The notes under the pieces: model-generated
Told to the model about the DNA's origin: nothing
What the model saw: the letters and a program-made list of their open reading frames with translations, nothing else
Database searches by the model: none
In this document: positions 23,639-24,789 of the stretch, piece by piece
Layout of the letters: each line of letters begins with the position of its first letter
Numbering within the stretch: position 1 is the first letter of the stretch
Translations under genes and position numbers: made by a program
Virus record (IMG/VR): IMGVR_UViG_3300048592_000443
Coordinates: 1-64,000 of that record
Origin: a virus
Strand: one strand, 5' to 3'
Length of the DNA: 64,000 nucleotides

Positions 23639-23976
23639 TGCCATGGCTCGCCGTCGTACCAAGGGTGAAGGGTCAATACCAGGCGGCGCGTCATCAGGTG
23701 GTCGCTGTCCAGCTCGGGCGGCTGCTCGAAGAAGGTGTCGCCACACTCCAGGCACTTGAAGCGGCGACGGAGGAGGAGGATACCCACCCGCTTCCCGTGC
23801 ATCGGGGTGTCGATGAACAGTTGCGGGCGCGTCTCGTGGCGGTAGAGGCGGGGCTGGACGTGACCGCAGCGAGGGCACGCCGAAGGGAGCGGGGTGTACT
23901 CCGCCGTGTAGCGGGTCGCTCCCTCAGCGTGCTCCTCGCCGCTAATCTGCCAGTTGGGGAAGCCGAGAGGGTTCAC
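23515..23976 (-). pseudogene. ISL3-family transposase, truncated N-terminal fragment
   Basis: From a GTG at 23976, residues 34-80 carry the ISL3 zinc-finger pattern CPRCG and CLECG, with RHETRPQLFIDTPMHGKRV between. ELDSDHLMTRRL at 89-99 matches the start of the family's next region. Homology stops at about 23679. The remaining ~50 codons are the antisense of the excisionase and integrase starts. It cannot encode a transposase. It follows the Cas8c-like gene after 3 bases. Confidence 0.78.
23643..23680 (+). pseudogene. Tyrosine integrase, N-terminal remnant only
   Basis: An ATG with AGGAG 7 bases upstream opens MARRRTKGEGSI, the very common N-terminus of phage tyrosine recombinases (KGEGSI followed by YxR-DGRW). 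The match ends abruptly at about 23679, where opposite-strand ISL3 transposase sequence begins. The frame then runs on without sense to a stop near 23759. No other integrase part is visible in the window. Confidence 0.7.
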
Positions 23977-23979
23977 GGG

Positions 23980-24420
23980 CTACGCCTCGTGACGGGCACG
24001 GGCATCACGAAGCAAGGCGCGAATGAGCTTGTCGCCGCCATTGGCCTTAACCCAGGCTTTCAGGTCGGCATCCATTCGCAGCTCGTATCTGCTGTCAAGC
24101 TCTGGTTCGGCGTCGAGGAGCTTCGGCAGGCGACCGGCGCGGAACTCGGCGCGCTGGTGGTAGTAGCCAAGCGAGAAGTCGCCCTGCTGCGACATGATGA
24201 GCGACCCTTCAAAGGCGTCGGCAGGCAGCTCGGCCATAATCGGCAGCAGCAGCTCGCGGGCCTCCTCGCCGCCGTTCTTGGTGGCCTGCATCAGCAATGG
24301 GGTCAGGTGGGACGGGACGATGCTCGCCTTCTCGTACATCCGCTCGACGTTGGGGACAACGCCCAAGCGGTCGAGAGCGGCCAGCAGCCGCCCCAGGTGG
24401 TATCCGGTGCGAGTGCTCAT
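23980..24420 (-). CDS. Cas8c/Csd1 C-terminal-like (Cas11c-like) protein fused to RHH-like tail
   Basis: 146 residues. Residues 7-92 follow the C-terminal part of Cas8c (Csd1) of type I-C CRISPR Cascade: YHLGRLLAALDRL, an ASIVPSHLTPLL segment, then MSQQGDFSLGYYHQRAEF with the hallmark QG-F-LGYYHQR. In true I-C systems this region also gives the small subunit Cas11c from an internal start. Here it is a free-standing gene with no cas neighbours. Residues 111-141 (RYELRMDADLKAWVKANGGD and a helix) look like a ribbon-helix-helix domain. It could be a Cascade mimic, an anti-CRISPR or a repressor; none is shown by the sequence. Confidence 0.72.
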   Translation of the reverse strand: MSTRTGYHLGRLLAALDRLGVVPNVERMYEKASIVPSHLTPLLMQATKNGGEEARELLLPIMAELPADAFEGSLIMSQQGDFSLGYYHQRAEFRAGRLPKLLDAEPELDSRYELRMDADLKAWVKANGGDKLIRALLRDARARHEA

Positions 24421-24423
24421 TGG

Positions 24424-24699
24424 TTAGCTCCTGCACTCGCAAGCGCCGCCCCAGTGGCCGGCGCACCCACCGTCGTGCTGCTCGCGCTTGGCCGGAGCGG
24501 CAGCGACGACCCGCAGGCCGCGATAGCCCAGCCACTCAGCAGGCGTGTTCAGCGTGTCGCCGCCCATCGCCACTTTGACCGCCTCGGCGCTGATCACCCA
24601 GGTCTTGGTGGTGCCGTCGAACTTGCCGCCGAGCTGCTTGGCCGTGCTGACGCCCTTGCCAAACACCTTGGGGTTCACGCTGACGGTGATGGTAGCCAT
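24424..24699 (-). CDS. Small protein with GGKFDGTTKTW motif and Cys-rich tail
   Basis: 91 residues. The segment AKQLGGKFDGTTKTWVIS at 20-37 resembles the short 'GA-W-D-KTW' domains of the DUF5710 kind found in plasmid proteins. The C-terminus, HDGGCAGHWGGACECRS, has three Cys and two His and may bind a metal. It is the first gene after the promoter at 24742-24770 and is followed 3 bases later by the Cas8c-like gene. The function is unknown. Confidence 0.65.
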   Translation of the reverse strand: MATITVSVNPKVFGKGVSTAKQLGGKFDGTTKTWVISAEAVKVAMGGDTLNTPAEWLGYRGLRVVAAAPAKREQHDGGCAGHWGGACECRS

Positions 24700-24706
24700 T
24701 GCCTTG

Positions 24707-24789
24707 CCTTTCGTCCGTACACGCTTCGTCTCTGTACGTACATATTAGCACCGTGTACGTACAAAGTCAAGGGGTGTACGGACGAAAGG
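24707..24789 (-). promoter_or_regulatory. Promoter with twin TGTACGTACA operators inside a 16-bp inverted repeat
   Basis: On the minus strand, -35 TTGACT (24765-24770), a 17-base spacer and -10 TAATAT (24742-24747). Two identical palindromes TGTACGTACA lie at 24733-24742 and 24754-24763, with centres 21 bp apart, two helical turns. One fills the spacer and one lies at the transcript start. The whole is flanked by a perfect 16-bp inverted repeat, CCTTTCGTCCGTACAC (24707-24722) and its complement (24774-24789). It should drive the Cas8c-like operon, and the RHH-like tail of its product could bind it. Confidence 0.8.

Follow-up and report, generated by a model that had tools for sequence, protein, structure and literature searches.

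What is a free-standing copy of the C-terminal end of Cas8c, joined to an additional tail, doing in a tailed phage: does it act on CRISPR, on DNA, or on both? The question is raised by a protein of 146 amino acids, here called P0001, which is encoded at 23980..24420 on the minus strand of a 64,000-nucleotide window (the whole stretch of DNA analysed). The window belongs to a 69.9-kb source record (IMG/VR record IMGVR_UViG_3300048592_000443; G000 below). A preliminary description, made by eye, had related the protein to Cas8c (Csd1) and proposed that it poisons Cascade assembly, acts as an anti-CRISPR, or has been turned into a repressor. The rarity with which viruses recruit Cas proteins as CRISPR inhibitors was called an enigma by a 2024 review (PMC11656645). 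P0001 is a clear case of Cas11c standing on its own in phages, a putative inhibitor of cas-gene origin whose chain also carries what appears to be a regulatory module.

Genomic context of P0001

The P0001 reading frame opens with an ATG and has an AGGAG close upstream, and its coordinates are as previously given. The gene comes second in a short operon of two, in which the stop codon of gene 1 (24424..24699, minus strand, 91 amino acids) lies just 5' of the P0001 start. Gene 1 has a weak DUF5710-like match, below cut-off, and a search of the phage collection found no relatives of it. The operon sits at the junction between the structural genes of G000, which lie on the minus strand, and the non-structural genes, which lie mostly on the plus strand; the terminase matches of this phage are remote.

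No gene for Cas7, Cas5 or Cas1 was found in the whole 69.9-kb record, so that the earlier statement that no cas gene lies nearby holds for these three well beyond the immediate surroundings. CRISPR-array-like repeats were likewise absent from the record, apart from a 15-bp-based tandem repeat (CTGAGCGACGCCGAC) at both of its ends (1-95 and 69788-69946), which looks as though the genome were circular or circularly permuted and had been opened within the repeat. Without Cas1, Cas5 and Cas7 and without array-like repeats, the idea that P0001 is a component of a viral CRISPR system was rejected. A single copy of GGATTGAAAC, resembling the end of a type I-C CRISPR repeat, occurs near the record end and outside the window (68755-68764); since it is only a 10-mer, the match is possibly due to chance. 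A check for RNA anti-CRISPRs gave no Rfam matches in the window.

Directly after the stop codon of P0001 begins the N-terminus of an ISL3-family transposase (23672..23976, minus strand, approximately 100 amino acids). An integrase-like start, recognised by eye (MARRRTKGEGSI, 23643..23678, plus strand), is cut at the same place as this transposase fragment, and no integrase catalytic domain is left anywhere in the G000 record.

The front domain of P0001 corresponds to Cas11c

Profile comparisons firmly identify the front domain of P0001 (residues 1-97; 24130..24420, minus strand) as a homologue of Cas8c/Cas11c. Residues 2-93 match positions 450-558 of the 559 positions of Pfam PF09709 (Cas_Csd1) with an E-value of 1.4e-11 and 44.2 bits, where the cut-off is 27 bits, and NCBIfam TIGR01863 is matched at positions 473-582 (E 3.6e-9). 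The TIGR01863 score of 35.7 bits, against a cut-off of 218.65 for the complete Cas8c equivalog, reflects a match to the C-terminal end only. Four Cas8c models of PADLOC also match P0001 (E ~1e-9), and hhalign aligned residues 4-97 with Cas8c C-termini at a probability of 98.8 and an E-value of 4e-17. A two-sequence profile of P0001 and one relative retrieved the solved Cas11c chain 8g9s_H with an E-value of 4.3e-5, aligning query residues 5-91 with residues 9-109 of the 124 of the chain; as a single sequence, P0001 gave weak matches only to solved Cas11c.

Cas11c is the small subunit of type I-C Cascade and is produced in cells from the end of cas8c; in Desulfovibrio vulgaris it corresponds to Cas8c residues 489-612, translation starting at an internal ribosome site (PMC7684278). 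P0001 is a stand-alone gene, not one encoded inside cas8c in a cas operon, and it starts at about the Cas11c start, which argues that the phage carries the small-subunit unit rather than an arbitrary fragment. The assignment of this region to the Cas11c small subunit, already proposed in the preliminary description, is borne out by this start point and by the match to the solved chain. The region had been called the C-terminal third of Cas8c; C-terminal it is, but it amounts to approximately the last fifth (about 110 of about 560 positions), which is the Cas11c unit.

The signature QGDFSLGYYHQR (residues 79-90; 24151..24186, minus strand) is near-invariant among Cas8c C-termini. Of 28 positions that are near-invariant in an alignment of P0001 with seven Cas8c/Cas11c sequences, 15-16 are retained, including Y..GRL and F..GYYHQ. 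Compared with cellular Cas11c, a conserved H-x-x-K segment between helices is gone from both phage copies (P0001 and the relative described below) and the loops are shorter. The difference in net charge between the phage and cellular domains varies with the boundaries chosen, and it is therefore not used as an argument here.

Besides the P0001 gene, a scan of viral contigs for F-x-[hydrophobic]-GYYHQR picked up chance matches and two Cas8c genes, both complete. Chance matches to the peptide pattern (L008-L011, L013 and L014) have no accompanying Cas8c match; for P0001 a chance peptide match was rejected, as profile and fold cover the whole domain.

An AlphaFold2 model of P0001, built from six aligned sequences, has a pLDDT of approximately 90 or above for residues ~5-94. 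All ten of the best Foldseek matches in the PDB were type I-C Cas8c/Cas11c. VIA-align superposed model residues 1-94 on Cas11c residues 6-117 with a Z-score of 12.6 (rmsd 2.3, 91 aligned). Next came CasB, the small subunit of type I-E, with 5.7; the first unrelated fold scored 3.6. The front domain is thereby predicted to adopt the helical-bundle fold of Cas11c, a prediction that depends in part on the sequence match because the alignment given to the predictor held cellular Cas8c ends. The preliminary description had set this comparison of profiles and structural model with Cas8c/Cas11c beforehand, and had named as evidence against itself the lack of a profile relation, or a match confined to GYYHQR with a different modelled fold; neither was found, because the match exceeds GYYHQR and the fold agrees.

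Four phage proteins in BFVD (A0A8S5LWF5, A0A8S5MS93, A0A8S5QYQ3 and A0A8S5MN34) have a predicted fold that resembles the Cas11c-like model (Foldseek probability 0.92-1.00). One of them is named as an HTH protein; they are otherwise unannotated.

A conserved tail and promoter in three phages

A single full-length relative of P0001, 58% identical, is present in IMG/VR. It is carried by G001 (54 kb), where its gene neighbours differ from those in G000. The search for the same domain pair, suggested in the preliminary description for phages and plasmids, was thus productive in one phage: INPHARED phages yielded no relatives of P0001, and the matches in the plasmid collection were annotated cas8c genes of low identity, all three of those inspected lying in type I-C operons. 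A scan of genome contigs with narrow peptide patterns gave one cas8c and nothing else.

The C-terminal tail of P0001 (residues 108-146, RYELRMDADLKAWVKANGGDKLIRALLR...; 23983..24099, minus strand) is a putative DNA-binding module that is kept in G001 and in a third phage, G010. It is almost identical in G001; the codons of the two tails differ by 17 synonymous and 6 non-synonymous changes, and this excess of synonymous differences argues that the tail is under selection. In G010 the tail is 51% identical over approximately 43 amino acids and is attached to a different front domain. A search with the tail only found just these two phages. That P0001 is a fusion with a separate tail was correctly recognised at the outset, while the ribbon-helix-helix label then attached to it is unconfirmed: hhalign scores against ribbon-helix-helix sequences fall within those of shuffled controls, Pfam and PDB profiles gave no ribbon-helix-helix match, and the tail forms two helices in the P0001 monomer model, the strand-helix-helix appearance being a reading by eye.

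Upstream of the operon is a sigma-70-like promoter (24742..24770, minus strand) composed of TTGACT (24770-24765), a 17-bp spacer and TAATAT (24747-24742). The palindrome TGTACGTACA occurs in the spacer (24754..24763) and again where the -10 hexamer ends, extending downstream of it (24733..24742), a double site seen in none of 100 shuffles. A degenerate third copy (TGTACGGACG on the minus strand, 24712..24721) follows 21 bp on and adjoins the ribosome site of gene 1, and a degenerate fourth copy (TGTACGGACG, 24775..24784) lies upstream of the -35 hexamer at the same 21-bp spacing. The G001 promoter has the same palindrome arrangement, including the degenerate third copy. In G000, G001 and G010 alike, two GTACGTAC palindromes lie over the sigma-70-like core; the GTACGTAC count is exactly two in each, always in the promoter of the tail-encoding operon.

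G010 came to light in a search of viral contigs with the operator pair and promoter pattern; the other operator-bearing loci from this search encode proteins without a P0001-type tail. Its tail-bearing protein (155 amino acids; L022 2124-2588) is likewise the product of operon gene 2. By blastn, G000 and G001 have in common only the gene and its promoter, G000 and G010 only the promoter, and G001 and G010 no DNA at all. Beyond a few distantly similar proteins, the three are largely unrelated phages. In all three the layout is of the acr-aca type, namely a small operon with a variable gene 1, which is different in each of the three, and a candidate regulator as gene 2. New here are the G001 relative and the finding that promoter and tail are common to three phages in which the front domains are swapped.

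Putative operators within the operon's own promoter thus accompany a tail-bearing protein in three of three phages, an association at the level of sequence. As promoter and tail are conserved and the front domains are swapped, this association suggests that the tail binds the operon promoter.

A second family with a similar plan

Scanning viral contigs for QG-x-F-x-hydrophobic-GYYH yielded four proteins of approximately 170 amino acids whose front remotely resembles Cas11c and whose end is HTH-like; they belong to phrog_12690 (PHROG annotation: function unknown). Proteins of this family are encoded at L054 4623-5132, L055 838-1359, L057 11381-11887, L059 974-1483 and L060 3974-4489. In Mannheimia phages the gene is close to the integrase and is gene 2 of a two-gene unit; the remaining genes have a small variable ORF in front. 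In single comparisons, the phrog_12690 front matched Cas8c C-termini by hhalign with an E-value of 2e-6, over 36 columns only, and P0001 with an E-value of 4.5e-6 over 82 columns.

Like P0001, phrog_12690 combines a remote Cas11c-like front with a C-terminal DNA-binding-like domain in the product of a second gene; unlike P0001, it has an HTH in place of the P0001 tail and scores below the Pfam cut-off. It therefore constitutes a second, more distant family on the plan of P0001, and probably a separate capture, because it is far more diverged from Cas8c. Since phrog_12690 also pairs a Cas11c-like front with an HTH, it seems that a Cas11c-like domain has been joined to a DNA-binding or DNA-binding-like domain more than once.

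Proposed function and alternative explanations

In our best explanation, to which we would give an even chance, P0001 is a self-regulated anti-CRISPR of the Acr-Aca fusion type: as a decoy for Cas11c it would poison type I-C Cascade, and it would also repress its own operon. The front domain, as a viral copy of Cas11c, would replace Cas11c in the host Cascade or dock on Cas7/Cas8c, and a Cascade bearing the decoy would be non-functional, being unable to hold the R-loop. By binding the TGTACGTACA operators that overlap the promoter of its own operon, the tail would shut the operon down once an early burst had passed. The activities that we infer for P0001 are binding to Cascade, inhibition of CRISPR, binding of the tail to DNA, and repression. 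Among the three functions proposed at the outset, the new evidence, all of it comparative, favours a combination, and the genomic context adds an argument for self-regulation. The order of the operon, with a variable gene followed by P0001, would suit an acr gene followed by a plain regulator equally well.

Such a pure regulator, with the anti-defence activity residing in gene 1, is the main rival to the fusion reading, and we regard it as rather unlikely yet deserving of attention. P0001 would then be an Aca-like repressor only, its Cas11c-like bundle having been captured for dimerisation. This would agree with its position behind a single other gene in an operator-bearing operon, the layout of acr-aca operons, with the same gene order in the phrog_12690 operons, and with the unrelated front domain that takes its place in G010; however, the Cas8c signature retained around F-x-LGYYHQ (15-16 of 28 positions) exceeds what a dimerisation bundle would need. 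Distinctly less probable is that P0001 is a sensor, whose Cas11c-like domain would be drawn to a host type I-C Cascade so that the repressor leaves the operators and the operon is on only in such hosts. The two parts of P0001 do predict two partners, Cascade and operator, and AcrIIA15 can bind promoter DNA and its Cas9 target simultaneously (PMC10901769), but with the other front domain of G010 the trigger would need to be a different one. We see a similarly small chance that the whole is a modular cassette, in which a constant tail and operator-promoter serve interchangeable fronts and the Cas11c copy senses the host type I-C Cascade, which would draw the repressor away from DNA so that the cassette is active only when required.

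The truncated ISL3 transposase and the interrupted integrase-like start that adjoin P0001 would fit a decaying or passenger cas8c fragment, imported beside a transposon and functionless. This is very improbable, given that the reading frame is intact with a good ribosome site, that the fusion is also found at full length in another phage, among other genes, that the changes in the tail are mostly synonymous and that the promoter is conserved. Hardly credible is a resemblance to a common helical bundle only, with no descent from Cas8c: middling structural scores are frequent among such bundles, but the sequence profiles agree independently and unrelated folds score no higher than 3.6.

The self-regulated anti-CRISPR that we favour has its closest known counterparts in AcrIB4, AcrIF24 and AcrIIA15. 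P0001 itself resembles Cas11c (the C-terminal part of PF09709) in its sequence profile and predicted fold, in where it starts and in the GYYHQR signature, and departs from it in being a phage gene of its own without Cas1, Cas5 or Cas7, in its shorter loops, in lacking the H-x-x-K segment and in its added tail. AcrIB4, from a Listeria element, is a tested inhibitor that is homologous to the Cas8b C-terminal domain and impairs CRISPR (review PMC13131331); like P0001, it lies on a mobile element and is related to a C-terminal domain of Cas8 while standing alone. In contrast to P0001 it concerns type I-B, and at 9.1 kDa in the table of that review it is apparently without a P0001-type tail. In AcrIB3, an inhibitor that resembles Cas5, part of Cas5 is missing (PMC13131331), just as the phage Cas11c copies lack the H-x-x-K segment of their Cas parent, a parallel in favour of the inhibitor reading. 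For AcrIF24 and AcrIIA15, experiments have shown both CRISPR inhibition and repression of their own promoters (PMC9638941, PMC10901769). They combine an inhibitor and an operator-binding part on one chain, as proposed for P0001; unlike P0001, they use HTH-type DNA binding, are not derived from Cas11 and concern other CRISPR types. Should the front domain block type I-C, P0001 would be a small-subunit decoy; otherwise, a regulator would have taken up Cas11c as one of its parts.

Further candidate domains and operators

The conserved promoter and tail offer a handle for discovering more counter-defence domains. The front domain of the G010 protein, which has no family match, is a candidate for a further one; a single-sequence model of this protein was uninformative (pLDDT 35).

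TGTACGTACA palindromes spaced 20-22 bp apart were also observed near unrelated genes, at L020 (locus end), L033 (981-1085, minus strand), L018, L031, L037 and L041. In these contigs they lie upstream of or between genes, in tandem arrays of up to six, and some overlap TTGAC promoters. By a rough estimate, such arrays are commoner in other viral contigs than expected.
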